Positions 14,371-48,819 of a stretch of 64,000 bases of DNA are shown piece by piece. The translations under genes and the position numbers were made by a program. The stretch's first letter is position 1; the number at the start of each line of letters is the position of its first letter. The stretch covers positions 62,001 through 126,000 of the forward strand of contig JAFKLL010000012.1 of NCBI GenBank assembly GCA_017304845.1, in the 5' to 3' direction. The stretch is from Solirubrobacterales bacterium. GTDB lineage: Bacteria; Actinomycetota; Thermoleophilia; Solirubrobacterales; 70-9. The notes beneath the pieces are model-generated. The model did no database searches. It saw nothing but the letters and a program-made list of their open reading frames with translations, and had not been told where the DNA came from.

Positions 14371-14429
14371 TGTGACCTTCGAGGAGTGCCGACAGGGCAC
14401 CTGTGTTCCAAACGAGGAGAGGGTCGAGG

Positions 14430-15569
14430 ATGTCACGTTCACGAGCTTTACTGGCTGTGTTTGCAGCTTTGATGTTGTCCGCATTCGTGGTTGCCGGATG
14501 CGGGGGATCTGACGATTCCAGTTCAGGCGACAGCGGTTCCGGTTCCGGCAGCGGCAGCACCGAGAACGCACAGAAGATGGTCGACAAGCTGATGGACCCG
14601 GCCCAGGCCGAGTTCCCCAAGCCGACCGAGGCCTTCGATCCCGGCAAGGGCAAGGTCGCGGTCATCTCCTGCGGCAACGCGGGCATCAACTGCAAGGACG
14701 GCTCCGAGGACGCCACCGACGCCGCCAAGGCGATGGGCTGGACCTCCTCGCCGGTCTTCGACGGTGAGTTCAACCCGGCGAAGCAGTCCGGCTACGTCCG
14801 CCAGGCGATCCAGGAGAAGTACGACGCGATCGTGCTCGTCTCGATCGACGTGAACTCGATCAAGGCGGCCGTCCAGGCGGCGGCCGACGCGAAGATCCCG
14901 GTCACCTGCGTGATGTGCTCGAACCCCGGTCTCGAGGACATCGTCACCGACGTGACCACCGGCGGCACCGCCGACGGCCAGGCGATCGGCTACTGGACGG
15001 CGGCCGACTCGGGCGGCTCCGGCAAGGTGATCGCCTTCGACGACAAGTCGTTCCCGATCGTCGCCAAGCGCGTCGCCGCGGCGAAGCAGGTGCTGGCCGA
15101 CAACTGCCCCGACTGCGAGGTCGAGGAGAAGGAGATCGCCACCACCGAGCTGACCGAGCCCGGTCCCCCGACCTGGACCGCGACGCTGACCGCGAACCCT
15201 CCGGGCTCGTTCCAGTACGCCTGGGCCGCCTATGACCCGTTCGCGATCCCGATGGCGAAGACGGCGGAGCAGCAGGGCCGCGACGACATCAAGATCACCG
15301 GCTACGACGCCTCCCCGGACTACGTCCAGCTGATCAAGCAGGGCGGCGACGCCGCCGCGACCACCGCGGCTCCGTTCGAGTACGCGGCCTGGGGCGCCGT
15401 GGACGAGGCCGCCCGGGCGGCGGCCGGGGTCGACCAGTGGGACGGCACCAAGCTGCCGGTCATGTTGGTCACCAAGGACAACGCCGACGATCCAGCCCTC
15501 GAAGCCGGGTTCTTCAACCCGCCCTTCGATTTCAAGGCCGACTTCCAGAAGCTCTGGGGTCAGTCCTGA
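14430..15569 (+). CDS. ABC transporter sugar-type substrate-binding lipoprotein
   Basis: The 379-residue protein has a lipoprotein signal ending in VVAGCGG (lipid cysteine about residue 24), a Ser/Gly-rich linker, and a periplasmic-binding-protein fold of the ribose/galactose type (KVAVISCGNAGIN, YDAIVLVSIDVNSIKAAVQAA, KVIAFDD, ITGYDASPDYVQLI). It captures the solute outside the cell for the ATPase and permease that follow. The ligand cannot be read directly. The importer follows the dikinase-like and family X genes after 156 bases, so the imported compound may be their substrate. ATG 14430 is chosen over the upstream ATG at 14403, which would put extra charged residues before the signal. Confidence 0.88.
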   Translation: MSRSRALLAVFAALMLSAFVVAGCGGSDDSSSGDSGSGSGSGSTENAQKMVDKLMDPAQAEFPKPTEAFDPGKGKVAVISCGNAGINCKDGSEDATDAAKAMGWTSSPVFDGEFNPAKQSGYVRQAIQEKYDAIVLVSIDVNSIKAAVQAAADAKIPVTCVMCSNPGLEDIVTDVTTGGTADGQAIGYWTAADSGGSGKVIAFDDKSFPIVAKRVAAAKQVLADNCPDCEVEEKEIATTELTEPGPPTWTATLTANPPGSFQYAWAAYDPFAIPMAKTAEQQGRDDIKITGYDASPDYVQLIKQGGDAAATTAAPFEYAAWGAVDEAARAAAGVDQWDGTKLPVMLVTKDNADDPALEAGFFNPPFDFKADFQKLWGQS

Positions 15570-15633
15570 TCAGACGACGGAATGGGGCGGGCTCCGGCCC
15601 GCCCCGCTTCGTCACCGGATGCCAGGAGGAGAG

Positions 15634-17076
15634 ATGAGCAGCACACCGAGACTGACCGTCACCGGGTTGAAGAAGTCCTTCGGCTCGAACAGCGTCCTCC
15701 ACGGCATCGACCTGGCCTTCGAGCCGGGGCAGTTCATCGGGCTGATGGGCCCGAACGGGGCCGGCAAGTCCACCCTGATCAAGATTCTCGCCGGGCTGTA
15801 CTCGGCCGACGAGGGGACGATCAAGCTGGACGACGAGACGGTCCGCAATCTCGGTTCCCGCAGGGAGTGCGGGTTCATCCACCAGGATCTCGGCCTGATC
15901 GAGGACATGTCGATCTGCGAGAACCTGCGGCTCGGGCAGCAGCCGATGAAGCTGGTCGGCCCGATCCTGAACTTGAAGCGCGAGCGCGAGGCCGCCGCCG
16001 AGGCGATCGCCCGGGTCGGCTTGGACCGGGATGTCGACACCCCGGTCAGCGCGCTCTCGCCGGGGGAGAAGACCCTGGTCGCGGTCGCCCGGACCCTGGA
16101 TCGGGGCGCCCGGATCCTGTTCGTCGACGAGGCGACCTCGACCCTGCCGGCCGCCGATTCGCGCCGTCTCACGGACGCGCTGCGACGCACGGTCGACGAC
16201 GGCGCGACCGTGATCATGGTCAGCCACAAGCTTTCCGAGATCCTCGACGACACCGACCGCGTGGTGGTGATCCTCGACGGCGAGATCTCGACCGACGAGC
16301 CGACCGCCTCACTGGACCGCGAGGGCCTGGTCGAGCGGCTGGTCGCGAAGGAGTCGGAGATGGCGGTCGAGGGCGAGGCCGACGCCTGCGAGATCGGCGA
16401 GGAGCTGATCGCCCTGGAGGCGGCCTGCGGCGGCCGGGCGGGGCCGGTCGATCTGGTCCTCAGGGGCGGCGAGATCACCGGCCTGACCGGGCTGCCCGGC
16501 TCCGGCCTGCATGACATCGGCTTTCTGGTCCACGGTTCGATGCGGCCCGTGAGTGGCCGGGTCCGCGCGTCGCGCAAGATCAGGCGGGCGCTGGTCCCGC
16601 CGCATCGGGAGACCCAGGGCGGGATCCCGGTCAGCTCGATCCGCGAGAACCTGACGCTTTCCTCGCTGCCCCGCTGGCGTGGCTTCGGCCGGCTCCTCGC
16701 CCTGGGGCAGGAGGGCCGGGACGCTCAGGGGATGGCGGATGAGCTCAACGTGGTCCCCGGCGATGCCGAGGGTCCGTACGGAGTGCTTTCCGGCGGCAAC
16801 AAGCAGAAGGTGATCTTCGGCCGGGTGCTCCTGAAGGAGCCTCAGGTCTATGTGCTTTGCGAGCCGACCCGTGGGGTCGACATCGCGACCCGGATGGAGA
16901 TCTACCGGCTGATCCGCAAGCTGCGCTCGAAGGACGTGGCGGTGCTGGTGATCAGCTCCGATTCGGAGGACCTGTTCTCGGTCTGCGACCGGATCGGGGT
17001 GGTTGACGACGGGACGGTGGAGGAGCTGGTCCCGGCGGAAGAGATGAACACACAACAGTTGGAGGCATTGGTCTGA
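15634..17076 (+). CDS. Sugar ABC transporter ATP-binding protein, two ABC domains (RbsA/XylG-like)
   Basis: The 480-residue protein has two fused ABC domains. The first has an intact Walker A (GPNGAGKST) and a changed signature LSPGEKTLVA. The second has a degenerate Walker A (GLTGLPGSGLHD) but a good signature LSGGNKQKVIFGRVL followed by EPTRGVD. This asymmetry is normal for RbsA/XylG ATPases. The length is near the usual 490-510. The ATG at 15634 follows AGGAGGAG, and the stop overlaps the permease start (TGATG). It energises import of the solute bound by the upstream lipoprotein. Confidence 0.9.
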   Translation: MSSTPRLTVTGLKKSFGSNSVLHGIDLAFEPGQFIGLMGPNGAGKSTLIKILAGLYSADEGTIKLDDETVRNLGSRRECGFIHQDLGLIEDMSICENLRLGQQPMKLVGPILNLKREREAAAEAIARVGLDRDVDTPVSALSPGEKTLVAVARTLDRGARILFVDEATSTLPAADSRRLTDALRRTVDDGATVIMVSHKLSEILDDTDRVVVILDGEISTDEPTASLDREGLVERLVAKESEMAVEGEADACEIGEELIALEAACGGRAGPVDLVLRGGEITGLTGLPGSGLHDIGFLVHGSMRPVSGRVRASRKIRRALVPPHRETQGGIPVSSIRENLTLSSLPRWRGFGRLLALGQEGRDAQGMADELNVVPGDAEGPYGVLSGGNKQKVIFGRVLLKEPQVYVLCEPTRGVDIATRMEIYRLIRKLRSKDVAVLVISSDSEDLFSVCDRIGVVDDGTVEELVPAEEMNTQQLEALV

Positions 17077-18275
17077 TGAGCAGCGTGACGGCAGGGAAAG
17101 TCGCGGCCTCCGGGCCGTCGGCATTGAAGCGGTTCGCCACCTCCCCGACGATGCAGGGCTCGCTCACCACGATCGCCTTCCTGCTGCTCTTCGTCGGCTA
17201 CTGGATCTGGCTGGGGGACACCTTCGTCAACGTCGACGCGCGCCTGCTCGACGTCCATCAGAACGCGCCGATCCTGATCCTCGGCCTGGCGGTGATGGTG
17301 ACCTTGATCGCCGGCCAGTTCGACCTCTCGGTCGGCGGCATGTGCACCCTGACCACCTTCCTCTCGATCGGGTTGGTGGTGCAGAAGGACTGGGCCTTCT
17401 GGATGGTGCTGGTGGCCTGCGTCCTGGCCGGGCTGATCGGCGGCCTGATCAACGGGCTGCTGGTGGTGAAGCTGGGGGTCAACACGTTCATCGCGACGCT
17501 CGGCACGGGCGGCGTGTTCCTGGGGATTTCGAGCGTCCTCTTCGGCGGCACCCAGCTGGCGCCGACCGATACGAGCCCGCAGCTCCCCTCCTGGTTCTCG
17601 GGCGACGGCTCGCTCGGCTCGTTCGGCGAGAAGTTCCCCTCGGTGATCGTCTGGATCGGCCTGGCGGCCTGCGCCTACGGGCTGTTCCGCTGGATTCAGG
17701 CGAGAAAGCCCGAGGGTCGGACGGACACCTCGTGGACCGTGATCTCGGCCGCGATCGTGGTGGTGCTGGCGGCGATCCTCTTCGCCCTGAACCTGCCGGC
17801 CTGGGTGGACGGGGTGTCCCTGACGATCGGCGTGCTGCTGATCATCGGGCTGGTCCTGTGGGTGGTGCTCCGCTACACGACGTACGGGCGGTACCTGTAC
17901 GCGACCGGGGCGAACCCCGAGGCGGCGAGGCTGGCCGGCGTGAAGACGGACCGGGAGACGATCCTGGCGTTCGTGATCGGCGGTCTCCTGGCCGCGCTCG
18001 CCGGGGTGATCCTGGCCGCGAACCAGGGCGCGGCCTCACCGGACATCGGTACCGGCTTCCTCCTGCCCGCGTTCGCCGCCGCCTTCCTGGGCACGGTGAT
18101 CATGTCCACGGGCCGCTTCCACGTCTGGGGAACCCTGATCGGAGGCACCTTCCTGGTCTGGGTCACACAGGGCTTGATCGTCGGCGGAGTTCCGTTCACC
18201 TGGACGGACGTCATCAACGGCGTCGTTTTGGTTGCCGCCGTTGCCGTATCGACGATCTTCCGCCGCCGCGCCTGA
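17076..18275 (+). CDS. Sugar ABC transporter permease (XylH/RbsC-like)
   Basis: The 399-residue integral membrane protein has about ten hydrophobic helices and the permease hallmarks DLSVGGMCTLT, GLINGLLVVKLGVNTFIATLGT and YATGANPEAARLAGV. It is longer than RbsC and similar in length to XylH, because of an extra segment around residues 160-245 (including GDGSLGSFGEKFPS and a charged loop before another helix). It is translationally coupled to the ATPase and completes the importer. Confidence 0.9.
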   Translation: MSSVTAGKVAASGPSALKRFATSPTMQGSLTTIAFLLLFVGYWIWLGDTFVNVDARLLDVHQNAPILILGLAVMVTLIAGQFDLSVGGMCTLTTFLSIGLVVQKDWAFWMVLVACVLAGLIGGLINGLLVVKLGVNTFIATLGTGGVFLGISSVLFGGTQLAPTDTSPQLPSWFSGDGSLGSFGEKFPSVIVWIGLAACAYGLFRWIQARKPEGRTDTSWTVISAAIVVVLAAILFALNLPAWVDGVSLTIGVLLIIGLVLWVVLRYTTYGRYLYATGANPEAARLAGVKTDRETILAFVIGGLLAALAGVILAANQGAASPDIGTGFLLPAFAAAFLGTVIMSTGRFHVWGTLIGGTFLVWVTQGLIVGGVPFTWTDVINGVVLVAAVAVSTIFRRRA

Positions 18276-25363: not shown

Positions 25364-26749
25364 ATGGGTTCGGCAGGAAATCTCCGTTCGTTCGTGTCAT
25401 GTCTCGCCGTCGCATCGGTCGGCTTCCTGGGGCTGGCGTCAGGCGCCGCGGCCCAGAAGGTCGACGGGATCAAGGGCAAGGAGGCGACGGCGCCGATCAA
25501 TCTCCAGATGACCCCGGCCGACGCCTTCGTGCGGATCCGGGGCTGGTCGCTGCCGGCGCCGCTTCTGCCGCTGTCCGTGATGGGCGGCTGGGGCGGTCGC
25601 GGCACCGTCACCGGCGGCGGGGCGATCAACGTGCCCGTCGGCCAGATCTCCCAGCCCAGCTCGTTCGAGTTCCCGCGTGACATCAACGGCGAGCAGGAGA
25701 CGATGAAGGTCAGCCTCTACGCCCGCTCCGACTGGACCGGCCAGATCAACCCGTTGAACGGCGAGCTCGTGATGAGCATGCCGACGACCCTGAGGATCCA
25801 GGCCTCGCATGTGCGGATGGTCGATCTGCCCTGGCCGGCCGGCTGGATCTACGGGAACATCGACTGCACGGTGCCGCTCGACTTCGGCCCGATGACCACC
25901 TCGCACATGGAGCCTCCCGTCGCCGGTCTCGAGATCCCTCCGGTCACCGACGGCGAGGCCTACGACCCCAGCGACGGCACCGCCACGGTGATCAACAACT
26001 CGATGGCGATCGGCGGCTTCAGCTGCAGCCGCCCGGACATCGGCGCCGGCAAGGTCGAGGACGAGCTGAACGGCGCCGTCGCGATCCCCTCCGCGCCCGG
26101 CACCACCGACGCCAAGTTCAACCTCAGCTTCCTCGACGGCGGCGACGTGATCCGGCCCCGGCCCGCGATCCGGCCCGCCTTCGACTCGGCCCCCGCCGGC
26201 CCGGGCCTCGCCACGCTGAACCCGGCCGGGAGCTACGCCAAGGCCGGGGTCCTCCGCTACGTCTGGGACTTCAACGCCGACGGCAAGCCCGATCAGTCCA
26301 CCGCCGAACGCGAGATCCTCCATGACTTCGGAGGCCCCGGCGAGCATCAGGTCGGCATGCTGATCGTCGACAAGGACGGCGACATCTCCGGCTGGCGCAG
26401 GGCCACGGTCAAGACCAACGCGAAGCCGGCGCCGAACGTGAAGCGGGGGCTGGTGGTCAAGGCCCGCGGGCCGAAGAAGGCCCGGCCCGGGGCGACCGTG
26501 AAGCTGCGGGTCACCGTCGCGAACCGCAGCGCGAAAAGAGCCGCGAAGGTCGTCGTCTGTGCCGGCTTCCGTCAGCGCTCGATCGCGAAGCCCGGCTGCC
26601 GCAGGGTCGGCGCGATCCGTCCCGGCAAGGCGAAGAAGACTGTCCTCGCGGTGAAGCTCAGCCGATCGGCCCGAGGCGCGGTGACCCTGGGCGTCAGTGC
26701 GAAGGGCAAGGGCGTCGCGCCCGGATCGACCCGGGTCCGGTTCAACTGA
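25364..26749 (+). CDS. Secreted PKD-domain protein with basic C-terminal domain
   Basis: The 461-residue protein has a signal peptide (SFVSCLAVASVGFLGLASGAAA). It has a beta-rich middle with a short Cys pair (IDCTV, FSCSRPD), then a PKD-like segment: YVWDFNADGKPDQ, then EHQVGMLIVDKDGDISGWR. The last 100 residues (GPKKARPGATVKLRVTVANR onward) form the same kind of Lys/Arg-rich Ig-like tail seen in the FG-GAP proteins of this window. It is probably surface-associated; the function is unknown. The ATG at 25364 follows GAGGAGGATC. The end overlaps the convergent LLM gene by eight bases. Confidence 0.75.
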   Translation: MGSAGNLRSFVSCLAVASVGFLGLASGAAAQKVDGIKGKEATAPINLQMTPADAFVRIRGWSLPAPLLPLSVMGGWGGRGTVTGGGAINVPVGQISQPSSFEFPRDINGEQETMKVSLYARSDWTGQINPLNGELVMSMPTTLRIQASHVRMVDLPWPAGWIYGNIDCTVPLDFGPMTTSHMEPPVAGLEIPPVTDGEAYDPSDGTATVINNSMAIGGFSCSRPDIGAGKVEDELNGAVAIPSAPGTTDAKFNLSFLDGGDVIRPRPAIRPAFDSAPAGPGLATLNPAGSYAKAGVLRYVWDFNADGKPDQSTAEREILHDFGGPGEHQVGMLIVDKDGDISGWRRATVKTNAKPAPNVKRGLVVKARGPKKARPGATVKLRVTVANRSAKRAAKVVVCAGFRQRSIAKPGCRRVGAIRPGKAKKTVLAVKLSRSARGAVTLGVSAKGKGVAPGSTRVRFN

Positions 26750-27800
26750 GCCGCGGCAGTACCCGCTCCGACATCCGCCGGCACCAGGACTCGGGCGGGC
26801 CGGCCATCTGGAGGGTGACCTGGTCGACCCCGGCCTCCTTCATCGCCAGCAGCTCGGCGGTCACCTCTTCCGGCGATCCGATCGTGGCGATGGTCCGCAT
26901 CGTCTCCGGGTTCACGAACTCCTGCAGGTGGTCGGGGACGAAGACGAGGTAGCCCTCGTAGTTGTCGGTGTGGCGGGTCTCGTCGTCGAGCCCGGCGCGG
27001 TACTCCATGTAGGCGTCGAAGCCGGGCCGGAACGGCTCCGGCACCTCGGACGAATGCTCATGGTTGGCGGTCAGGTACCGCAGGCGGCTGACCACCAGCG
27101 GGCCGAGCGCGTCACGGGCCTCCTGGGTCTCCAGCTCGGCCTCGTCCTCGATCGGGTAGACGGCGAAGACCGTGCCGATCTGGATCTCGGACGGGTCACG
27201 CCCGACCTCGGCCGCGCCCTCGGCCAGTCGGCCTCGCACCGCCTCGATCGCCTCGGCGCCCTCCCAACGGACCAGCACCCCGTCCGCCTCGGCCCCGGAG
27301 CGGCGCTGCCCCTTCGGCCCGAAGGCGGACACCCACATCTCGACCTCGTTCTCGAGGCTGATCCAACGGCCGTCCGGATGGAGGAAGCGGATCGGCTTCT
27401 CGCGGTCGCCCTCGCGGTAGACGGTCGACTCGCCGGCCAGCAGCTCCCGGACGTTTCGCACGTGCTCGAACATCACGTCCTGGGTGGCGGGCTTCATCCC
27501 GATCGACCAGCGCGCCGAGTTGCCGATCCCGATCCCGAAGAAGGTCCGGCCCGGAGCGGCCTTGGCCAGGGTCGCCATGCCCTGCGCCGAGTTGAACGAG
27601 GGACGCGAGAGCGGCTGGGTCACGCCCGGGCCGATCTTGATCGTCTCCGTCGCGCGGGCCGCCTCCAGCATCGCCATGTAGACCTCGCCGAAGACCAGCG
27701 GGCTCTCATACACCCAGAGATGGGTGAAGCCGCTGTCCTCGAGCAGCTTGGCCTTCTCACCGATGCCCAGGTTGGCGTCCACGTATACCCCGACGTCCAT
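26742..27800 (-). CDS. LLM class flavin-dependent (probably F420) oxidoreductase
   Basis: The 352-residue protein has the bacterial-luciferase-like TIM barrel: VGVYVDANLGIGEKAKLLED, GFTHLWVYES, TIKIGPGVTQPLSRP, and RTFFGIGIGNSARWSIG. In actinobacteria most such enzymes use F420; a binding site cannot be confirmed by eye. The substrate is unknown. It lies one base after the alcohol dehydrogenase gene on the same strand and so probably belongs to the SDR-dehydrogenase-LLM operon running from 29576. Confidence 0.85.
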   Translation of the reverse strand: MDVGVYVDANLGIGEKAKLLEDSGFTHLWVYESPLVFGEVYMAMLEAARATETIKIGPGVTQPLSRPSFNSAQGMATLAKAAPGRTFFGIGIGNSARWSIGMKPATQDVMFEHVRNVRELLAGESTVYREGDREKPIRFLHPDGRWISLENEVEMWVSAFGPKGQRRSGAEADGVLVRWEGAEAIEAVRGRLAEGAAEVGRDPSEIQIGTVFAVYPIEDEAELETQEARDALGPLVVSRLRYLTANHEHSSEVPEPFRPGFDAYMEYRAGLDDETRHTDNYEGYLVFVPDHLQEFVNPETMRTIATIGSPEEVTAELLAMKEAGVDQVTLQMAGPPESWCRRMSERVLPRLS

Positions 27801-38793: not shown

Positions 38794-38972
38794 GTAGTCG
38801 GTGGTCAGACTAAACCGGGGGTCCAGCGTCTGATCTCCTCCAAGCGACCGAGTTCCCCATTCCTTACGGCAGGCGAACTCGGTTCGTTCCGCCCCGCAAG
38901 GGAAAAAGGCGCAACTCCCACAGAGCGGTCCAACCTCCCTTTCGAAGAGCGTGAGAGTCTCCCCGGTCGTAG

Positions 38973-39335
38973 TTATGCTCTCACTCCTCGGAGCCGGAGC
39001 TTTCCGGTTGAGTTCGAGTCGTCGAAGTCTTCAACGACTCCTCGCATCTCGAAGCCAATTTCGATACAAGCCAAGGCTGCCGCGCCATTTGCTTGGGCGA
39101 CACGACCAATGATTTCGTTGCGAATGCTTCTGACAAGAAGCTCAACTCCCGGGACGAGGGTTACAGCCAAACCTTTGAACACGAACTTCTCAGCGTCACC
39201 GGAGAAGGGGATCAGCATCTCTTGCTCACAGAAGCCGAGATCCTCGTCCTGCTCTGAGTGCGCTTCGCTCGAGCCTTTGAGGTCATATGGACCTCGCTTT
39301 CGTACGTCTAGGTTTTCTTTCGGTCCGCCGCCCAT
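38973..39335 (-). CDS. Hypothetical 120-residue protein upstream of the DUF4417-like gene
   Basis: ATG 39335 follows CGGAG at ten bases and opens a 120-residue frame with a mixed strand/helix pattern (FCEQEMLIPFSG, FVFKGLAVTLVPGVELLVRSI, ACIEIGFEMRGVV). It ends at 38973, inside the upstream open part of the DUF4417-like frame (overlap 38973-39030). A -1 shift in that overlap would fuse both into one protein. I do not recognise it. It could be a small adapter gene or the N-terminal half of a broken gene. Confidence 0.45.
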   Translation of the reverse strand: MGGGPKENLDVRKRGPYDLKGSSEAHSEQDEDLGFCEQEMLIPFSGDAEKFVFKGLAVTLVPGVELLVRSIRNEIIGRVAQANGAAALACIEIGFEMRGVVEDFDDSNSTGKLRLRGVRA

Positions 39336-39456
39336 AGATTCAGAACTCCGTCTGTTGTGGTGGAGGTGACCCGCCTTCTGGCTGGGTATCCCTAGTTCAA
39401 AACGTTGCAATGCATTTCCAACGTGTAGAAATCTTCCTCGCTCGTTCGGACGGAAA

Positions 39457-39948
39457 ATGCGGATTTCCGTTCAGATGGCGTCCGGAAGCGCAGATAGCCT
39501 CATTCCAATGGACCGGGGAAGCAGCATCGATGTGCTGGAAGAAGAACGCAGAATGATTGAACAACGCATCGATCAGGACGCGAAGCGACTAGCGGCGATC
39601 GAGGTGGTTGTTCGTAGCCTTCGAGAGCAGCTTGAACGGGACAGGAGAACGCTGCGGGAAATCGACTCCGTCCTCGGGCGCCTCCCTCAACTCGACCTTC
39701 GTGACCTCGATATCCGTCTTCGGGGACAGCACTTGGAGGAAGTCGCGCTAAAAGTTCTGGCCGAGAAGTTGGGTGATGAAGTAGAGGTTCACTACCGAGA
39801 CTGGTTCGCCTTGCTTGAAGGCCAGGGTCTCCTTGTTGCCGGGAAGGAGCCCCTCAACACCTTTTTGGCCCAGATCAATCGGTCTCCTCATGTGGAGCGA
39901 ATCGGCAAACGAACTGGGCGCTACCGGGTCACCGTCAAGGCAGCCTGA
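39457..39948 (+). CDS. Coiled-coil protein with HARE-HTH-like C-terminal domain
   Basis: The 163-residue protein has a strong heptad-type helix from about residues 24-72 (LEEERRMIEQRIDQDAKRLA onward). It then has a compact domain, LRGQHLEEVALKVLAEKLGD, WFALLEGQGLLVAGKEPLNT, and FLAQINRSPHVERIGKRTGRYRV. The last part resembles the HARE-HTH winged helix found in restriction and chromatin-linked proteins. The start could be ATG 39457 or ATG 39508. Codon use is less GC-biased than neighbouring genes. No partner restriction gene is present. Confidence 0.6.
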   Translation: MRISVQMASGSADSLIPMDRGSSIDVLEEERRMIEQRIDQDAKRLAAIEVVVRSLREQLERDRRTLREIDSVLGRLPQLDLRDLDIRLRGQHLEEVALKVLAEKLGDEVEVHYRDWFALLEGQGLLVAGKEPLNTFLAQINRSPHVERIGKRTGRYRVTVKAA

Positions 39949-40162
39949 GAATCTCTTACTGATGTAGCTCCGACAGGTTTGTCTCTCGAGCCGAAATAGC
40001 AAGGGCATCAAGGCTAGACGCTGGTCCCTTGTCGGGCGTGGAGTCGTCCACTTGACCGCCTTCCGGCGCTGTCGGCAAAATGCTGCTCCCCACGGAAAGA
40101 CGCTCCTGTCGCTCAGGTTGATCACTCCACACTCGTGACCTGCAAGCAGCCGGAGCAATCAG

Positions 40163-41224
40163 TCAATTTAGACCCACCTGGTCTTGGTCCGTATCGGCGC
40201 AGGCCTTGATATCCACCACAATCCGGCTGCCGCCGGTGTCGCCGGTGTGGACCCGGTCTAACCCCTTGCGCACGTCAGCCAGCGGGATCACGTCCCCGAC
40301 CACCTTCGGCAGGACCAGCTCCCCCGACGCCAACAGCTCGATGCTCCGGCGCACGTCGCTCGGCTCGTGTCCGTAGGAACCGACCAGCTCCCGCTCGCGG
40401 AGGACGAAGGTCATGATTCGGCCCGCGTTGGCTGGTTCGAAGCCGACTCCGGTGATCACGGCTCGGCCTCCGTCGTCTAGGGACCTCACGGCCTTTTCGA
40501 CCGTTTCGGCTCGGCCTACGAACTCGAGGGCTACGTCCACTCCGCCTTGCTCGGTGATCTTGGCGAAGCCTTCCTCTGGTTCATAGGCCGCGTCGGCCCC
40601 CGTGAGGAGTGCCCAGTCACGTGCTTCCTCGCGGGGGTCGACGGCGACCACTTGTTCGGCGCCCAGAGCCTTGGCGATGCCCACCGCCGAGAGTCCCAGG
40701 CCGCCGGTTCCCCAGACCGCGACCCGCATGCCCGGGCCGACCCGGCCCTGGGTCGCGACCGAGTGATGGGAAGTCGCTACGGAATCCGTGGCGACCGCGG
40801 CAAGGGTGTCGCTCAGGGAATCCGGGACCGGCACCACGTTCCGCGCCGGCACCGTCGTGAAATCGGCCCAACAACCCTCCGCGTCCGCTCCGATGCAGAG
40901 GCGCTGCTTGCAGAGCCTCGTCTTGCCGGACAGGCACCGATCGCACTCCATGCAGGTGATCAGGGGCAGGATCGCCACCCGATCGCCGACCTCGACCCCG
41001 GTCACGCCCTCGCCCAGACCGGCGACCCGGCCGTAGGGCTCATGGCCGAGCACGATCGGGGCATAGCTCGTCTTCGAGGACTTGTCGATCACGAAATGGA
41101 CATCCGAACCGCAGATCCCCACCTTCTCCAGGGCGACCAGCACCTCGCCGGCCTTCGGCTCCGGCTCCGGCCAGTCGTCACGGACCGTCAGCTCGCCCGA
41201 CTCGTCCAGCACGGCGGCGCGCAT
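40163..41224 (-). CDS. Zinc-dependent alcohol dehydrogenase (MDR family)
   Basis: The 353-residue enzyme shows catalytic zinc residues in KVGICGSDVHFV and LGHEPYG, and a structural zinc loop, CMECDRCLSGKTRLC. The NAD(P) segment is VAVWGTGGLGLSAVGIA. ATG 41224 overlaps the stop of the phosphotriesterase-family gene (TGATG), so it is the last gene of the family X operon. It would oxidise the alcohol released or processed by the upstream enzymes; the substrate is unknown. Confidence 0.88.
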   Translation of the reverse strand: MRAAVLDESGELTVRDDWPEPEPKAGEVLVALEKVGICGSDVHFVIDKSSKTSYAPIVLGHEPYGRVAGLGEGVTGVEVGDRVAILPLITCMECDRCLSGKTRLCKQRLCIGADAEGCWADFTTVPARNVVPVPDSLSDTLAAVATDSVATSHHSVATQGRVGPGMRVAVWGTGGLGLSAVGIAKALGAEQVVAVDPREEARDWALLTGADAAYEPEEGFAKITEQGGVDVALEFVGRAETVEKAVRSLDDGGRAVITGVGFEPANAGRIMTFVLRERELVGSYGHEPSDVRRSIELLASGELVLPKVVGDVIPLADVRKGLDRVHTGDTGGSRIVVDIKACADTDQDQVGLN

Positions 41225-42165
41225 CAGACGTCCTTCCAAGCGTAGAACGCCTTCGGGTTGTCGACCACCATCTTGCGGGTCGCGCTCTCCGGCACACCCA
41301 CCTGATGCAGCCACGGGATGAACCGCCACAAGATGTAGCTGTAGCCCGGGCCGCCCCCGTAGGCGGTCATGTAGCTGCGCCGGGCGATGTCCCCGGAGAG
41401 CATGATCTGGTCCTCATGCCCCTCCTCGACGAGGCGCTTGATGAACTCGATCCGCTGCGCCTCCGGCTGGTAGTGCTCCTTCGAGATGCAGTCGAAACCG
41501 AGCCGGTAGCCGGCCTTGGCGACCGCCAGGTGATCGTCCCAGTCGAGTCGACGATCGAGGTGGCCGATCATCGTGTGCTCGGGGTCGGCCCCGGCATCGT
41601 CGAAGATCCGCACCTGCTCCAGCGGGATCGTGCCCGCCGTGGTGTGGGTCTGGATCGGGGCGCCGGTCCGCTTCTGCGCCTCGACCCCGGCCCGGATCAT
41701 CTTGTCCTCCTCGGGCAGAACCTCGTCCTTCGAGGAGCCGAGCTTGATCACGCCGGCGCGGACACCGTCCGAGTCGGGGATCGCGTCGGTCAGGTCGGTC
41801 AGCATCTCGTCGAGCAGCGACTCCGGGGACCGACCGGCGATGTCCTCGACCCCGCGCCAGTAGCCCTCCATGATGTGCCCGGTCGAACAGATGATGTTCA
41901 CCCCGGTGTCACGCTGGAGGCCGGCGAGCTTGTCGGCGCCGCGGCCGTACTCGGTGGTGGTGCAGTCGACCACCGCCTGGCCGCCGGCCCGCTTGAAGAT
42001 CTCGAGCTCCTCGGCCGACTTCGCCATGTCCTCCAGGATCAGGTCGTCGCCGCCCATCTTCTCCAGCAGGTGCTGGCCGGGCATCGTGGCGAGATGCTCA
42101 TGGCAGTAGGTGACGCCGAGCTGGTCCGGGTCGATCTCGCCGCCGACCGTGTGTACCTTGCCCAT
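41224..42165 (-). CDS. Phosphotriesterase-family metal hydrolase (PTE/lactonase-like)
   Basis: The 313-residue amidohydrolase has the binuclear-metal residues of the PTE family: YCHEHL (HxH), a likely carboxylated lysine in AGVIKLGSS, a histidine in PIQTHTTAG, the GHLDR histidine and the metal aspartate in LSGDIARRS. Family members hydrolyse phosphotriesters, lactones or similar esters. In this operon it follows a phosphohistidine-domain protein and family X, so cleavage of a phosphorylated or lactone intermediate is conceivable. This is inference. Confidence 0.87.
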   Translation of the reverse strand: MGKVHTVGGEIDPDQLGVTYCHEHLATMPGQHLLEKMGGDDLILEDMAKSAEELEIFKRAGGQAVVDCTTTEYGRGADKLAGLQRDTGVNIICSTGHIMEGYWRGVEDIAGRSPESLLDEMLTDLTDAIPDSDGVRAGVIKLGSSKDEVLPEEDKMIRAGVEAQKRTGAPIQTHTTAGTIPLEQVRIFDDAGADPEHTMIGHLDRRLDWDDHLAVAKAGYRLGFDCISKEHYQPEAQRIEFIKRLVEEGHEDQIMLSGDIARRSYMTAYGGGPGYSYILWRFIPWLHQVGVPESATRKMVVDNPKAFYAWKDV

Positions 42166-42770
42166 CAGATCGACCCCTCCGCCTCGCGGGTCCGGCCAAG
42201 CGTGAGCAGGAAGTCCTCATGCGCCTCGAACCAGACCGTGTGGTAGCTGTCGACCGCGGGGGAGACCATGAACCGCGGGTCCTCCTCGACCTTGTCGAGG
42301 GCCTCGCTCAACCGTGCGCCGTAGCGGGCGAACCGGGGCGAGACCTCGCCGGCCCGGTCGAGCGAGTCGACCGCGTCCTCGTGGATCTCGTGGACCTCCT
42401 CGACCAGCTCGAAACGACCGGCGTCGTCGCTGACCGCCTGCCAGCGGGAGGCGATCTCCTTCACCGTCGAGTTGAGCGCGAGGAAGCCCTCGTAGGCGTC
42501 GGCGATCTCGGCCTTTGCCTCGTCGTCGACACCCTCCGCCAGCAGCTCCTCGTGGCGGGCCCGGCCGGCCGGGCTGAGCATCCAGCCGGGACGGCGACCG
42601 CCGGTCCGTTCCACCACCAGCTCCTCGTCGGCGAAACCGCTGAGCAGCTCGGCCGCCGCCCCGGGATCGCCGCCGATCGAGGCGGCGACCTCGTCGACGC
42701 TGGCCCGTCCCTTGATCTTCAGGACGTGGAGCGCGGTCAGGGTCAGGTCATTGCTCTGGGTCATCGTCAT
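42165..42770 (-). CDS. Uncharacterised protein with winged-helix-like N-domain, family X operon
   Basis: The 201-residue protein begins with a segment resembling a winged helix (LTALHVLKIKGRASVDEVAA, then FADEELVVERTGGRRPGW and LSPAGRARHEELL). It continues as an acidic helical domain ending DSYHTVWFEAHEDFLLTLGR. It is one base downstream of the family X gene and overlaps the PTE-like gene by one base, so it is a fixed member of the operon. It could be a regulator or a dikinase accessory subunit; the helical part is more like an enzyme subunit than a DNA-binding regulator. I do not recognise the family. Confidence 0.7.
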   Translation of the reverse strand: MTMTQSNDLTLTALHVLKIKGRASVDEVAASIGGDPGAAAELLSGFADEELVVERTGGRRPGWMLSPAGRARHEELLAEGVDDEAKAEIADAYEGFLALNSTVKEIASRWQAVSDDAGRFELVEEVHEIHEDAVDSLDRAGEVSPRFARYGARLSEALDKVEEDPRFMVSPAVDSYHTVWFEAHEDFLLTLGRTREAEGSI

Positions 42771-42771
42771 C

Positions 42772-44433
42772 TCATGCCTCCGCCGGAACCGGCTTGGCGG
42801 CCCCGGTCTCGATGTCGCTCCAGGCGTTCTCGCCGGCAGCCCTGCGGATCTCCTCGATGTCCGCCCGGACCAGGGACGAGCCCTTGTCCTTCAGCAGACG
42901 CGAGCTCTCCTGGGTGTAGCGGTACATCGCCTGGACGTCTTCGTCCTCGTGGTTCCACTTGACGTGCTGCTCGTCGAAGTTCCGCCACGGGCTCTCCAAG
43001 AGCGGCGAGTTGAACTCGCGCGCCGCCTGGTTCATCTCGTCCTGGGTCAGCTTGCCCTGGACGAACGTGTACGGGGTCGACTTCTCCGGCAGCCTCGAGC
43101 TGCCCTTCGAGTCCGACAGCCCGTTCGGGTTGACCCGGCGCGGGTAGTCGTGGCCGTCGAGGATGTGGGCCGGGATCAGGTTCGCGTTCCGGCCCGGAGG
43201 CGGGACGTCGCCCTGGCCGCCGCTCTTCCGCCACACCGAGTACGAGACGGGGTGGAGGTAGTAGTCGTTCTGGGCGGCGAGATGGCCGTCCATCGCGGCG
43301 AAGTGGCTGACGTACTCGTCGAGCGAGTACTCCTCGTTGTGGATCTCCCAGAACCGGGCGGATCGCTCGTCGATGTACTCCCACTCGCGCTGCTCGTAGA
43401 CCCCGGCCAGACGGGCGATGTCGGAGGCGCACTGGAAGTACGTGTAGATCCCCGCCTCGATCATCTGGTTCATGGTCATCTCGGAGAAGCGGCGGTACAG
43501 CTTCTTCGTCGCCTCCTTCATCTGCTCCGACATCTCGTTCAGCGTGTCGATCAGGTCCTGGCGAGAGTCCATGCCGACCGGGACGTAGCGGTCGGTCAGG
43601 AAATCCGAGGTGTAGAGGCCGACCCCGGTGATCCGCGGCTGGTAATTCTCGGGCTGGGTGTAGGCCGTGCCCCAGTCGGTGATCTCCATGGTCACCTCGT
43701 CGGTGAGGACGACCAGGGTGAGGTTGTTGTGGTCGACCGTGTCACCGACCCCGTCCATCCAGGAGAACCCGCACTCCGACATGTTCGTGAAGTCACGGGT
43801 GTGCATGAGCCGCTTGCCGCCGAGGCGGTAGGGGCCGGAGCACTGGAGCCCGACCCGGCTCTCGCAATGGATCAGGAAGTTGTACTGCGTGCCGAGCGCG
43901 GTGAACTTGGCCGCCGCGTCGCGCAGCTCCTGGTTCGCCTCGAAGGCGTCCGCCTCGAAGACCTGGAGGACCCGCTCGTCATGCTCCTGCGCGATGTCAT
44001 TCGAGTCGAGCACCCACTGGTGGGCGGCGTTGCGGTGGAAGGCCGCGTTGAACCGCTTGTGCCAGTCGACCATCGTCCAGAGGTCCTCGACGTTGTCTTC
44101 CGGCTTGAGCATCCCCGCCTTGAGCAGGTTGGTGCGGCCGTTGAGGTAGAAGTTCAGCGTTCCCCACGAGGTGACCTTGCCCATGTTCAGGCTCGAGTTC
44201 CGGGCCCGGTGGCCCATCTCCTCGGGCGACATGACCGCGGTCGCCTTCCGGATCAGATCGGGCATCCGGTAGTACTGGTCGTAGAAGATCATCTGCAGGT
44301 ACGGCATGATCGGGAACAGCTTCGATTCCTGGGCCGTCCGGGTCAGGCAGTTGTGGATCAGGACGTCGTCGGTCCGCTGCAGATACGTGTTGAGTTCGAG
44401 CAGCTGCTGCTCGTCGATGCTCCATTCGCTCAT
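42772..44433 (-). CDS. Uncharacterised 'family X' protein, paralogue 2
   Basis: The 553-residue protein aligns end to end with the protein at 12627, sharing by eye about half its residues. Blocks include HNCLTRTAQESKLFP (27-41), HCESR plus SGPYRL, VGLYTSDFLTDRYVPVGM, TDWGTAYTQPE, EEYSLDEY and RYTQESSRLL. It has no signal peptide or membrane helix. It starts three bases after a gene for a free phosphohistidine swivel domain, while paralogue 1 overlaps a gene containing the same kind of domain. This repeated pairing is the main clue. A catalytic or acceptor-binding subunit of a histidine-phosphate transfer enzyme is proposed. Confidence 0.78.
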   Translation of the reverse strand: MSEWSIDEQQLLELNTYLQRTDDVLIHNCLTRTAQESKLFPIMPYLQMIFYDQYYRMPDLIRKATAVMSPEEMGHRARNSSLNMGKVTSWGTLNFYLNGRTNLLKAGMLKPEDNVEDLWTMVDWHKRFNAAFHRNAAHQWVLDSNDIAQEHDERVLQVFEADAFEANQELRDAAAKFTALGTQYNFLIHCESRVGLQCSGPYRLGGKRLMHTRDFTNMSECGFSWMDGVGDTVDHNNLTLVVLTDEVTMEITDWGTAYTQPENYQPRITGVGLYTSDFLTDRYVPVGMDSRQDLIDTLNEMSEQMKEATKKLYRRFSEMTMNQMIEAGIYTYFQCASDIARLAGVYEQREWEYIDERSARFWEIHNEEYSLDEYVSHFAAMDGHLAAQNDYYLHPVSYSVWRKSGGQGDVPPPGRNANLIPAHILDGHDYPRRVNPNGLSDSKGSSRLPEKSTPYTFVQGKLTQDEMNQAAREFNSPLLESPWRNFDEQHVKWNHEDEDVQAMYRYTQESSRLLKDKGSSLVRADIEEIRRAAGENAWSDIETGAAKPVPAEA

Positions 44434-44436
44434 CGC

Positions 44437-45156
44437 TCAGCCCTCGGGAATGATCTGGGCGCGCTCGTTGAGGTCCTCACCGAAGTAGGCCTCCACGTTC
44501 TGCGCGACCGTCGAGTACTTGACCGTGACCTTCTCGCCGTCGACGAGGTGACGGGCGAGCCGCACGTTCATCAGGGTCGGCACGCCGAACTCGCGGGCGA
44601 TGATCGCCAGGTGCGAGCGGACCGTGCCGGCCAGGCAGATCACTGCTTCGAAGTCGGGGAGGATCGGGGCGGTCATGGTGCCGCCGGCGTCGTCGATCAC
44701 GCCGATCACGCCCTCCGGGACGCCCTCGGTGATCAGCCGGTCGACCTCGGAGACCTCGCGGACGATCATGATCTCGCCGGTCACGTCCTCGGCCTGGAAG
44801 GCGTTGTCGCCGTCACCGACCACGCCCTCCGGGAAGTCGTCGGGGGAGAGGATCGTCGCCTCCTCGGAGCGTGAGACGTAGAGGTCAGGGTGCTCGATCA
44901 CCGCGATCTCGCAGCCGGCGTAGAAGGGGCGCCCTTCCTCTTCCTTGAAGCGCTTGAAGATGTCCTGGGCGAGCTCGTCGCCGTCGGCCTTGCTGAACAA
45001 CTCGTCCCAGCGATCGGAGACGACGTCGGACCACTTCGCGTCACCGAGCTTCTCGGCGTTGGCGACCACGCGGTCGAAAACCTCTTCGCGGGTCATGCGG
45101 GCCAACGCGGTCCCCTCGGGAAGGGTCCACTTGGGGTTGGCTGTGGGGTGCTTCAC
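44437..45156 (-). CDS. Free-standing PEP-utiliser mobile (phosphohistidine) domain protein
   Basis: The 239-residue protein has about 110 helical residues, then a swivel domain with the catalytic-type His182 in GTVRSHLAIIAREFGVPTL, preceded by GVIDDAGGTMTAP. This matches the phosphohistidine domain of PEP synthase, PPDK and phenylphosphate synthase, but there is no ATP-grasp domain and no PEP barrel. It must therefore receive phosphate from elsewhere, possibly from the ATP-grasp protein at 10756. The GTG start follows GAGGAGAGCAGCAA. It is the first gene of the operon with family X. Confidence 0.83.
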   Translation of the reverse strand: MKHPTANPKWTLPEGTALARMTREEVFDRVVANAEKLGDAKWSDVVSDRWDELFSKADGDELAQDIFKRFKEEEGRPFYAGCEIAVIEHPDLYVSRSEEATILSPDDFPEGVVGDGDNAFQAEDVTGEIMIVREVSEVDRLITEGVPEGVIGVIDDAGGTMTAPILPDFEAVICLAGTVRSHLAIIAREFGVPTLMNVRLARHLVDGEKVTVKYSTVAQNVEAYFGEDLNERAQIIPEG

Positions 45157-45273: not shown

Positions 45274-45287
45274 CGGTTCTTACAAGG
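45274..45287. promoter_or_regulatory. Shared element upstream of the family X operon
   Basis: CGGTTCTTACAAGG is a 12-of-14 match to GGGTTCCTACAAGG at 48921-48934, upstream of the PucR-type regulator gene. It lies about 118 bases before the GTG at 45156 and overlaps the ligase stop. It may be the regulator's binding site, or chance. Confidence 0.3.
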
Positions 45288-46848
45288 CTGCGGCGGCCCG
45301 GTGCCGCTCCGCGGCCCAGGGGCGGATGTCGCGCTTGAGGAGCTTGCCGGAGGGGTTTCGGGGCAGGGGCTCGGTGCGGACGTAGATCGCGCGGGGGCAC
45401 TTGAAGGTGGCGAGGTGGGTGCGGCAGAGGGTGTCGATCTCTCCGGTGTCGACCGCTTCGACCTGTTCGGCGACGATCACCGCGACCGCGGCCTCGCCCC
45501 ACTTCTCGTCCTCGACCCCGACCACGGCGACCTCGCGGACCGACTCGACCCGGTGGATCACGTCCTCGATCTCCCGCGGGTAGATGTTGAGGCCGCCGGA
45601 GATGATCATGTCCTTCTTGCGGCCGGTCACGGTCAGGTAGCCGTCCTCGTCGATGATGCCGAGATCCCCGGTGTGGAGCCAGCCGTCGCGGAGGGTCTCC
45701 TCGTTCGCGTCGGGCCGGTTCAGGTAGCCCTTCATCGTGGCCGGGCTGCGCAGGATGATCTCGCCCTCGCCGTGCTCGACGATCTCGCCCTCCATGGTGC
45801 GGATCGCCATCGTGGTGATGGTCAGGGGCCGGCCGGCCTTGCCGACGTGGGTGATCCCCTCCTCCGGCCGCAGCATCGTCGCCATGGTCGGGAACTCGGA
45901 CAGGCCGTAGCCCTGGAGCACGCCGCAATCCGGCAGCTCCTTCTGCAGGGTCTCGATGATCGCCTTCGGCACCGGCTCGGACCCGGTCACGATCCAGCGG
46001 ACCTTCGAGGCGCGCATCTGCTCCAGCAGCTCGGGGGAGATCGAGAGCTGCTTCAGCAGGGTCGGCACCAGGAAGGTGTGGGTCACGTCCTGCTCGACCG
46101 CGGTCTTCACGATGTTGTCGACCCCGGTCTCGCCGGTCGGCATCAGGACCGAGCGGCCGCCGATCATGATCAGGGCGAGGACCACGTCGTGGAAGCCCGC
46201 CGCCCAGGAGAGCGACGGCACGCAGAGGTAGACGTCCCGGTCGGTCAGGTTGAAATCGCCGATCTGGGTGAACGAGTTCCAGAGCACGCCGTCATGGGTG
46301 TGGACCGCCGCCTTCGGCAGCCCGGTGGTGCCGGACGTGTAGTAGTGGATGAAGGTGTCGGTCGGGGCGGGTCCGGGGTCGGGCAGGACCGGCTCGATGC
46401 CGGCCGAGGCGTCTTCCAGGGCGACGGCGTTGCAGCCCTCGGGGACCGTGACCTCGCCGACCGTCATCACCTTCGGCGGCATCTGGTCCAGCTCGGACAG
46501 GGCCCGTTCGGCGGCATGGTCGGCGATCAGCAGCGAGACGTCGCTGTCGTCCACCACATGCCGCACCTCCGGCCCGCGCAGCAGTACGTTGACCGGCACG
46601 CAGATCGCGCCGAGCGCGGCCAGGCCGAAGAAGACCTCGGGCCACTCGTGCCGGTTGCTCATCAGCACCGCGACCCGGGTGCCGTGTCCGACCCCCTCGG
46701 CGGCGAGCGCGCCGGCGGTGATCAGGGAACGGTCATGGAGCTCACGGTAGGTCCTCGCCTCGCCCTTGTAGACGAGTGCCGCCTCGTCCCGCTGGGGCGA
46801 GTGGACACGACGGGTTAGGAGATCGAAGACGGTGTAGTTGAGGTCCAT
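45280..46848 (-). CDS. AMP-forming acyl-CoA ligase
   Basis: The 522-residue enzyme has the adenylate-forming signature YYTSGTTGLPKAAVHTHDG, the GYGLSE motif, the hinge region GRKKDMIISGGLNIYP and the C-terminal lysine in NPSGKLLKRD. It activates a carboxylic acid as acyl-AMP and then acyl-CoA. Its position between the PucR-type regulator and the family X operon suggests it activates the acid at the end of that pathway; the substrate is unknown. A hairpin at 45241-45265 follows. Confidence 0.9.
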   Translation of the reverse strand: MDLNYTVFDLLTRRVHSPQRDEAALVYKGEARTYRELHDRSLITAGALAAEGVGHGTRVAVLMSNRHEWPEVFFGLAALGAICVPVNVLLRGPEVRHVVDDSDVSLLIADHAAERALSELDQMPPKVMTVGEVTVPEGCNAVALEDASAGIEPVLPDPGPAPTDTFIHYYTSGTTGLPKAAVHTHDGVLWNSFTQIGDFNLTDRDVYLCVPSLSWAAGFHDVVLALIMIGGRSVLMPTGETGVDNIVKTAVEQDVTHTFLVPTLLKQLSISPELLEQMRASKVRWIVTGSEPVPKAIIETLQKELPDCGVLQGYGLSEFPTMATMLRPEEGITHVGKAGRPLTITTMAIRTMEGEIVEHGEGEIILRSPATMKGYLNRPDANEETLRDGWLHTGDLGIIDEDGYLTVTGRKKDMIISGGLNIYPREIEDVIHRVESVREVAVVGVEDEKWGEAAVAVIVAEQVEAVDTGEIDTLCRTHLATFKCPRAIYVRTEPLPRNPSGKLLKRDIRPWAAERHRAAAAL

Positions 46849-46905: not shown

Positions 46906-48819
46906 CTAAGCCTCCAGCGTGACCGGCTCCGCCGCCTCGTCCGGGACTTCCTCGGCGGAGGGCATGCGTCCCTGGAGCCGGAGCACCAGCAAGGCCATCT
47001 GACCGGAGAGCTGATCGTCCGAGTTCGAGGCGAGGTCGAGCCCGGTGATCTCCTCGATCCGACCGAGCCGGTAGCGGATCGTGTTCTCGTGGACGTCGAG
47101 GCTGGCGGCCGACTGGCGGATGCTGCGCGCATGCTCGTAGAAGGCGCTCATCGTGGCCAGCAGGGTGACCATGGCCGGGTCCGAGGCGTCGACCAGCGGG
47201 CCGAGCGTGTCGTCGGCGAAGCGCCTGGTCTCCTCGCCGTCGGGGGCGGCCAGGAGCAGACGGCCGGCGCCGAGGTCGTCGGCGGCCAGCACCGGGGAGT
47301 CGCCCGAGGACAGCTCGGTCGCGCACTTGAAGACCTGCCGGGCCTGCTCGTAGGCGCCGCCGAAGGATTCGACCCCACGGCAGACCGTCGAGATCGAGAT
47401 CGTGACCCCGCCGGAACCGGACTCGTCCGCGGCCCGCGTGAGCCGGTCCTTGGCGGAGGCGACCATCTGCCGGGTCGCGGCGTCGCCGGGAACCTCGACC
47501 ACCGCTGCGACCCCGTCCTTGACGCTCGAGACGCAGGACTGGAGGCTGGGGTCCATGTCGCGCAGGGCGAGGGCGAGGCGCCGGGCCGAAGGGGGACGGC
47601 GGCGGCCGGTCGAGCCACGGGTGATCAGCGCGACCACATGTGGCCGGTCGAAGTCCATGCCGTGGAAGTGGGCCCGCTTGGTCAGCGAGGCCCCGCTGTC
47701 GGTGCCGAAGATCAGGTCGCGGGCGAGGGCGCCGCGGGAGTGGACCTCGGCGTCGGCGGCCCGCTGCTCGGCGGTCAGCTCGAGCGCGATGATCGTCGAG
47801 GCGCGCCGGGCGACGATCGTGTCCATCTGGTTGAACTGGCTGGTCTGCGCGGTGATCACCACGTAGCCCCAGTTGTCGTCGTGGAGGGTGATCGGGATGA
47901 CCATGAAGCGGTGGGGGAGGCCGGCCGAGGTGAGCGGCCCGATCACGCTGGGCTGCTTCGCTTCCAGGCCGGAGATCGCCTTCGCGACCTCGGGCCGGCG
48001 CCGGCGGTCCTCGTCGAAGACCTGGGCCGGGGTTCCTTCGCCCTCCGGGGTCTCCATCGCGAGCCGGTTGTACTTGTTGTCGTAGATCGCGCAGGGCTTG
48101 CTGGTCAGGCTGGCGACCGTCGAGGCGATCTCGCCCAGGCCGGCGCCGTCGAGCACCAGGTTGGTCAGTCGATCCTCGATCGCGGAGCTCCGCCTGAGCA
48201 GCTTGTTCTGCCGGGCCACCGTCTTGAAGCTGGAGGCGAGCCGGGCGGTGCGCTGGCTCTGGGCGACCGCGATCGCCGCCAGGTTGGCGAAGGTCGCCGC
48301 CATCTCCTGCTCGGAGTCCGTGTAGTCGTGATGCTCGTCCGCGTTGTCGAGGAAGAGCAGGCCGATCACGTCGTGGTTGTGGACCATCGGCACGCCCAGC
48401 ATCGACTTGACGTCCCACTCGCGCATCGTGGAACGGACCGGGCGCGGATCCGACTTCGCGTTGCGGATCAGCACCGGCTCCTTGCGGGCCAGGATCTCGC
48501 GGGTGAAGCCATCGGACTCCACGCCGGCGGTGAGCCGCTTGATCGCGGCGTCGACCTTGCGGCCGGTCTCGGCGACCTGCCCGTGGAACAGGTCGGTCTC
48601 GGGATCCTTCAGGTAGACCGAGCAGCGCCGGATCGAAAGCAGCGAGCAGATCTTCGCCGCGATCAGGTGCAGCAGGTCGTCGGGATCGGTTTCGTCGCTG
48701 ATCGCCCCGGCCACCTGCCGGAACGCCTCGAGAACTTCGCGGTAGTCGGTCGCTCCGTCGCCGCCGCCTTGGAAAGCCGCCCCGTCTGCCGCCGGAGCCT
48801 GCTCTAGCAGTTCAGCCAT
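46906..48819 (-). CDS. PucR/CdaR family transcriptional regulator with GAF domain
   Basis: The 637-residue protein has an N-terminal GAF sensor (about 45-190, DLLHLIAAKICSLLSIRRCS through MLGVPMVHNHDVIGLLFLDN). A central region (about 200-540) resembles the CdaR GGDEF-like domain. A PucR-type helix-turn-helix follows near the C-terminus (ARSIRQSAASLDVHENTIRYRLGRIEEITG). Such regulators sense small aromatic or organic acids and activate nearby catabolic genes. It is upstream of the ligase and the family X operon on the same strand, so those are its likely targets. Confidence 0.88.
   Translation of the reverse strand: MAELLEQAPAADGAAFQGGGDGATDYREVLEAFRQVAGAISDETDPDDLLHLIAAKICSLLSIRRCSVYLKDPETDLFHGQVAETGRKVDAAIKRLTAGVESDGFTREILARKEPVLIRNAKSDPRPVRSTMREWDVKSMLGVPMVHNHDVIGLLFLDNADEHHDYTDSEQEMAATFANLAAIAVAQSQRTARLASSFKTVARQNKLLRRSSAIEDRLTNLVLDGAGLGEIASTVASLTSKPCAIYDNKYNRLAMETPEGEGTPAQVFDEDRRRRPEVAKAISGLEAKQPSVIGPLTSAGLPHRFMVIPITLHDDNWGYVVITAQTSQFNQMDTIVARRASTIIALELTAEQRAADAEVHSRGALARDLIFGTDSGASLTKRAHFHGMDFDRPHVVALITRGSTGRRRPPSARRLALALRDMDPSLQSCVSSVKDGVAAVVEVPGDAATRQMVASAKDRLTRAADESGSGGVTISISTVCRGVESFGGAYEQARQVFKCATELSSGDSPVLAADDLGAGRLLLAAPDGEETRRFADDTLGPLVDASDPAMVTLLATMSAFYEHARSIRQSAASLDVHENTIRYRLGRIEEITGLDLASNSDDQLSGQMALLVLRLQGRMPSAEEVPDEAAEPVTLEA

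Follow-up and report, generated by a model that had tools for sequence, protein, structure and literature searches.

In a stretch of 64,000 nucleotides from a Solirubrobacterales bacterium (assembly GCA_017304845.1, contig JAFKLL010000012.1; hereafter the window), five adjoining minus-strand genes at 40163-45156 encode a free swivel (phosphohistidine) protein (HIS), a member of a family that we call X, a winged-helix protein (WH), a phosphotriesterase (PTE)-family hydrolase and a Zn-dependent alcohol dehydrogenase (ADH). With a phosphohistidine carrier and no ATP-grasp domain, the locus raises the question of where its phosphate could come from and to which molecule it would pass. Our results indicate that it is likely to be one half of a split small-molecule dikinase that has four parts and two phosphohistidine carriers; the other half, which bears the kinase, is found ∼27 kb off (10756-18275), also within the window. 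A preliminary description had called it a second family X locus; a second X paralogue is indeed present, but the locus is not independent, being half of one split system.

One system divided between two loci

The two loci were considered as halves of one system because of the co-occurrence of their parts in relatives, the presence of a sole pyruvate phosphate dikinase (PPDK)-type ATP-grasp and the gene order in Patulibacter. Scanning a genome collection with X yielded 137 relatives; the 80 retained come from Actinomycetota, Pseudomonadota and one Bacillus. Loci were picked by X similarity alone. Of the distant ones, 38 had full flanks, with no less than 9 kb to either side. In each of these 38 we found HIS and WH together with a PPDK-type kinase, biotin carboxylase (BC), carboxyltransferase (CT) and biotin carrier (BCCP); an AMP-forming ligase was present in 37, a thiolase in 26 and a tyrosine-phosphatase-like protein in 15. 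It should be noted that these 38 loci include close relatives and are not 38 independent events, and that distinct families and phyla are covered. In the whole assembly (2.49 Mb, 59 contigs, 75% complete, so that assembly-wide negatives are not absolute), the sole match to PF01326 was the 10756 protein (PPDK1), and PF00391 matched two proteins, PPDK1 and HIS. The genome-wide search for ATP-grasp partners thus returned no PPDK-type partner besides PPDK1, and the role of dedicated partner of the HIS-X locus falls to the 10756 type itself.

The gene order in relatives points in the same direction. In two Patulibacter genomes (L034/L127 and L036/L124), one contig carries PPDK-substrate-binding protein(-ABC ATPase) and a second carries ABC permease-HIS-X(-X'); this implies, once the contigs are taken as joined, a single run of kinase, ABC transporter, swivel, X and X'. 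L123, L124 and L127 each have a PPDK1 orthologue (∼56-57% identity) ahead of the same set of ABC genes. The order PucR-ligase-HIS-X-X'-WH-PTE-ADH is found on one strand in L031 (Solirubrobacterales) and repeated in L033 (Conexibacter), so that the neighbour sets are not random. In the window the order is divided into PPDK-X1-ABC transporter and PucR-ligase-HIS-X2-WH-PTE-ADH. Since the window carries, in divided form, the parts of its relatives' single runs, a predicted supply of phosphate in trans from the 10756 protein, as first suggested from the window alone, is well supported by both the 38/38 co-occurrence and the Patulibacter linkage. In the X tree, the window-type members, including both paralogues, formed one clade (support 99), next to a clade from the canonical clusters described below (support 99). 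X was not found in 17 other genomes of the same genus, and the system is therefore patchy in this lineage.

The genes of the locus and the two upstream of it are:

44437..45156, minus strand: HIS, free swivel (phosphohistidine) domain protein, 239 residues, His182 (PF00391)
42772..44433, minus strand: X2, family X, 553 residues, presumed acceptor/substrate subunit (no trusted family; AlphaFold (AF2) model)
42165..42770, minus strand: WH, 201-residue partner, winged helix and conserved helical half, apparently of the Rv1126c-type family (AF2 model, fusions)
41224..42165, minus strand: PTE-family hydrolase, 313 residues (PF02126; position kept in L031, L032 and L033)
40163..41224, minus strand: Zn-dependent ADH (PF08240 and PF00107; after PTE in L031 and L033)
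45280..46848, minus strand: acyl-CoA ligase, AMP-forming (PF00501; directly before HIS in L031 and L033)
46906..48819, minus strand: PucR-type regulator with GAF domain (PF01590, PF13556; before the ligase in L031 and L033)

The other half and a linked gene are:

10756..12630, plus strand: PPDK1, ATP-grasp and swivel (His440), 624 residues, presumed phosphate donor (PF01326, PF00391, NF004531)
12627..14273, plus strand: X1, tandem-type paralogue of X2 (56% identity; X and X' are neighbours in L031, L033 and L034)
14403..15569, plus strand: ABC transporter substrate-binding protein, Peripla_BP_4 (PF13407; after the PPDK1 orthologue in L123, L124 and L127)
15619..17076, plus strand: ABC transporter ATPase, double (PF00005 twice; L123, L127)
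17076..18275, plus strand: ABC transporter permease, sugar/ribose type (PF02653; before HIS-X in Patulibacter L034 and L036)
26745..27800, minus strand: luciferase-like (LLM) oxidoreductase, probable pathway member (PF00296; linkage in relatives)

The junctions HIS/X, X/WH, WH/PTE and PTE/ADH measure 3, 1, -1 and -1 bases: three bases separate the HIS end (44437) from the X start (44433), one separates the X end (42772) from the WH start (42770), and both overlaps take the form TGATG, at 42165 and 41224. For ADH the preferred start is ATG 41224; GTG 41329 in the list of open reading frames is just the longest possible one. Third-position GC of 0.93-0.96 in the first four genes is a strong coding signal, and the coding and arrangement of the five genes are far from chance, their neighbours being conserved; the upstream ligase and PucR genes belong with them to one conserved run (L031, L033). 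None of the five genes matched an ATP-grasp model. The PTE hydrolase scored 215.5 bits against PF02126 (gathering score 22.4) and matched no NCBIfam equivalog at its cut-off. The outline given in the preliminary description, namely five minus-strand genes with junctions of at most 3 bases or overlapping, a 239-residue protein with the swivel as its sole domain (PF00391 alone, His182 in place), an X that is a paralogue of the 12627 protein and no ATP-grasp domain, was confirmed throughout. The LLM oxidoreductase is a probable member of the set by linkage, its orthologues (∼490 bits) lying between X and WH (L032), before PucR (L031) and beside PPDK (L125).

Two APH-type phosphotransferases (9508-10617 and 20228-21238) flank the kinase-bearing half. 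L123 has an orthologue of the second one next after its ABC permease, and L014 and L016 have APH-like genes near X. Beside the ADH end, a stretch of lower GC (36945-40158; 0.60 versus ∼0.68) with weak coding signal and DUF4417-like and luciferase-like genes is possibly the remnant of an insertion. A B12-dependent methionine synthase (61069-63999) continues past the window end.

Elsewhere, many Actinomycete clusters (L012, L013, L062, L066, L067, L094, L099) have three X genes: one short X that comes with a short HIS of its own, one HIS-X fusion and one long X paired with a long HIS. On a plasmid of Methylibium petroleiphilum PM1 (L017, 11695-22635), a distant X, HIS and WH stand beside a B12-binding protein, AMP ligase, MeaB and mutase that resemble a 2-hydroxyisobutyryl-CoA mutase set. 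Some metagenome bins (L035, L041, L049, L069, L085) that bear the name of Bifidobacterium breve or of Klebsiella pneumoniae also carry the system and are probably mislabelled.

From kinase to presumed acceptor and pathway

PPDK1 contains PF01326 and PF00391 and nothing else in its 624 residues; the C-terminal phosphoenolpyruvate (PEP)/pyruvate barrel was absent by domain search, which places the protein outside PPDK proper, and its score against NF004531 (VadK/truncated PPDK; 477.3 bits, cut-off 456) assigns it to the VadK-type truncated PPDKs. K23, R96, MPG 103-105, D308, E310, Q322, R324 and H440 are invariant in the PPDK1 family, and the swivel His was kept in 63 of 63 PPDK sequences. In HIS, PF00391 covers residues 147-213 (E 3.5e-10), with His182 within GTVRSHLA; this position is invariant in all 99 members of the family, and the HIS gene lies immediately 5' of the X gene in nearly all loci.

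We propose that PPDK1, with ATP, would phosphorylate itself at the swivel His440, and that this phosphate would pass to a small molecule bound on X1 or X2, directly or via His182 of HIS. WH would bind the kinase and keep the parts together. The substrate would probably be imported by the adjoining ABC transporter and might be processed further by the PTE-family hydrolase, ADH, LLM oxidoreductase and CoA ligase under the control of PucR, the order of these later steps, like the parts played by PTE and ADH, being presumed. Two carriers would be superfluous in a scheme with one swivel, so a relay from His440 through His182 to the substrate would be the simplest reading, parallel use of both carriers being a possible alternative.

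Family X itself had no match above cut-off in Pfam or NCBIfam. Pfam searches with 104 members gave nothing trustworthy, a FA_desaturase_2 match (E 0.0056, one of the 104) being rejected as chance, and no relatives worth trusting were found in PDB by profile search. The AF2 model of X (pLDDT 92.8, pTM 0.92) had no usable Foldseek match (best E 0.64, no RPH among the matches) and no PDB fold match by VIA-align, which effectively covered residues 166-310 only. A relationship of X to the substrate domain of HpeH or RPH was unsupported, hhalign giving a probability of ∼0.1% against PRK08296 (HpeH-like) and RedH-like proteins, although this is a weak test with target alignments of 2 sequences. A single-sequence X query against genome contigs also returned no match. 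R193, G200-P201-Y202, R213, W225 and P261 are invariant and R32, S37 and R100 nearly so, and these residues would suit a phosphoryl-acceptor site.

Regarding the substrate, loci L037-L110 share a conserved HIS-X-ligase-WH-PPDK-BCCP-BC-CT-thiolase cluster (for example, L086 in Pseudonocardia dioxanivorans, L078 in Pseudooceanicola and L099 in Rhodococcus koreensis). This canonical cluster looks like an undescribed phosphorylation-carboxylation pathway and was found nowhere described in the literature searched. Its CT is of the pyruvate-carboxylase-B type, with ligase and thiolase downstream. The Hpe pathway proceeds in the order phosphorylation, carboxylation, dephosphorylation and activation (PMC9618137), and the parallel with it would point to a ketone- or phenol-type substrate for the canonical clusters. 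Neither the window assembly nor four of the six window-type genomes contain the CT, and on these grounds the idea that the window itself encodes a biotin carboxylase pathway was set aside. In the window type, PTE, ADH, LLM and a ribose-type ABC importer stand where the canonical clusters have CT; because of this replacement, the substrate is probably a hydroxy or keto compound that is polar and imported.

A narrower version of the split dikinase, with more definite chemistry, would have X phosphorylate the enol of a ketone (compare PPDK and pyruvate). The PPDK type of the kinase (586 bits to TIGR01828) and the CT of the pyruvate-carboxylase-subunit-B type, with CoA ligase and thiolase downstream, agree with this suggestion, but the comparable Hpe pathway puts its phosphate on a phenol hydroxyl and keeps carboxylation separate (PMC9618137), and the absence of this CT from the window assembly and most window-type genomes also argues against it. 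Thus, such an enol kinase seems possible but rather improbable, and so does the fate that it would give its product, namely carboxylation in canonical clusters and other processing in the window type.

The role of WH and other readings

WH has no Pfam or NCBIfam family. Its AF2 model (pLDDT 95.4) showed a MarR-like winged helix-turn-helix (wHTH) at residues 1-82 (Z 12-13.7; root-mean-square deviation 1.3 Å over 77 residues). However, all ten invariant residues (F96, N100, W110, Q111, S175, H177, W180, H184, E185 and R195) lie in the helical C-terminal half and none in the wHTH. HIS, X and WH form a single polypeptide in R. opacus B4 and in G440; in G517 (L150; L171 8497-11157), WH is fused to the C-terminus of a PPDK-type kinase in one reading frame of 887 residues; and in many Mycobacteriales WH stands beside a PPDK-type kinase without X. 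Because WH is fused to X or kinase parts and adjoins kinases where X is lacking, it is a partner of the kinase and not a regulator, perhaps acting as a scaffold or docking part; a MarR-type transcription regulator was rejected for the same fusions and the position of the invariant residues. The earlier label, a winged-helix-like protein, therefore holds for the N-terminal fold, and the role is corrected to that of kinase partner.

The same evidence bears on a regulatory phosphorelay, in which PPDK1 and HIS would phosphorylate proteins, and X or WH would sense or control a catabolic regulon with no phosphorylated metabolite. VadK is reported to target methylcitrate-cycle enzymes rather than to be a metabolic PPDK (PMC13400623), one half of WH is a winged helix and a PucR regulator adjoins the locus. 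On the other hand, X systems lie within catabolic operons (CoA ligase and thiolase, with BC, CT and BCCP in 38/38), as in the proven HpeHI pathway, the invariant residues of WH lie outside the wHTH, and PucR already provides a separate regulator; we thus regard this relay as unlikely. Still less probable are two independent kinases, PPDK1 with its own swivel serving X1 and HIS-X2 being fed by a donor outside the incomplete assembly, since this accords with X1 adjoining PPDK1 and X2 adjoining HIS in the window but not with X and X' lying behind a single HIS in L031, L033 and L034, with PPDK and HIS-X in one inferred Patulibacter operon or with HIS and PPDK together in all full-flank loci.

Several points weigh against the split dikinase as proposed here. 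With no detectable homology to HpeH-like substrate domains, linkage and conserved residues are what suggests X as the substrate site; as a set, X, HIS and WH are known from sequence and models alone. The scheme offers no reason for its two swivels, half of WH is DNA-binding-like, the adjoining pathway genes vary from clade to clade, and a further phosphate donor could be missing from the assembly.

Comparison with known systems

PPDK, RPH and HpeHI already work by the logic of ATP-grasp, swivel His and small-molecule acceptor. The literature searched held no description of a make-up in four parts, of the second carrier or of X and WH. Two families without curated model or solved structure, X and WH, are tied here to a well-understood phosphotransfer logic, in a system that spans at least three phyla, often stands beside an undescribed carboxylation-type pathway and offers an example of a PPDK dismantled and reused with new substrate subunits.

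The system also bears on what takes the phosphate of VadK, a virulence kinase of Mycobacterium tuberculosis, and on the role of Rv1126c. In a mycobacterial locus (L174, 7527-9694), a VadK-type kinase (886 bits against NF004531) is followed by a 201-residue protein that matches the WH model (171 bits) and by genes resembling Rv1125, ephC and zwf, with a PE-family-like neighbour. Judging by the gene order and this neighbour, the pair is probably Rv1127c/Rv1126c, and WH seems to be a member of the Rv1126c family. L166 and L167 were dropped as Rv1126c loci, having no adjoining kinase. VadK (Rv1127c) is likewise a truncated PPDK (ATP-grasp and swivel, NF004531) with a WH-type partner; it autophosphorylates at its swivel His422 in an ATP-dependent manner, and Rv1126c improves its solubility and is washed off only with 2 M NaCl (PMC13400623). 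Unlike the window system, the mycobacterial pair in L174 lacks an adjacent X or free HIS, and the role proposed for VadK is protein regulation; in the window, WH lies ∼30 kb from the kinase. Two mycobacterial genomes (the L174, L181 and L182 set) have exactly three PF00391 proteins each, of VadK type, of Rv2047c type and one more, which is a PEP synthase by model in G537 and resembles one in G521. By elimination among these three, the Rv2047c-type protein is a candidate acceptor of VadK phosphate in mycobacteria; that of Nocardia (L128) contained no X by hidden Markov model. It is conceivable, and we suggest it tentatively, that these systems form a modular ATP-driven relay that depends on two obligatory swivels and on X as a new acceptor fold, the VadK-Rv1126c-type pair being a general donor for interchangeable acceptors.

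The closest parallel in logic is that of the two-part dikinases, as proven for HpeHI (PMC12167813). In HpeHI, CreHI and PpsAB, ATP-grasp, swivel His and substrate domain are also distributed over separate proteins that start catabolic pathways, and the Hpe genes adjoin biotin carboxylase and CoA ligase genes (PMC12167813, PMC9618137). However, their ATP-grasp stands alone and their sole swivel shares a polypeptide with an RPH-like substrate domain, whereas in the window system the kinase has its own swivel (PF00391, His440), the second swivel is free and WH is extra; homology of X to HpeH-like proteins was not detectable with the thin alignments of 2 target sequences. RPH and PigC/RedH share the ATP-grasp/swivel phosphotransfer to a small molecule, but are single polypeptides with another substrate domain, and RPH was not among the Foldseek matches of the X model. 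Compared with PPDK, PPDK1 keeps the ATP-grasp, the swivel and the catalytic residues without the PEP/pyruvate barrel. Finally, two successive phosphohistidine carriers would recall the logic of enzyme I and HPr in the phosphotransferase system (PTS), with the difference that the donor in the window system, which has no PTS domains, would be ATP and not PEP.

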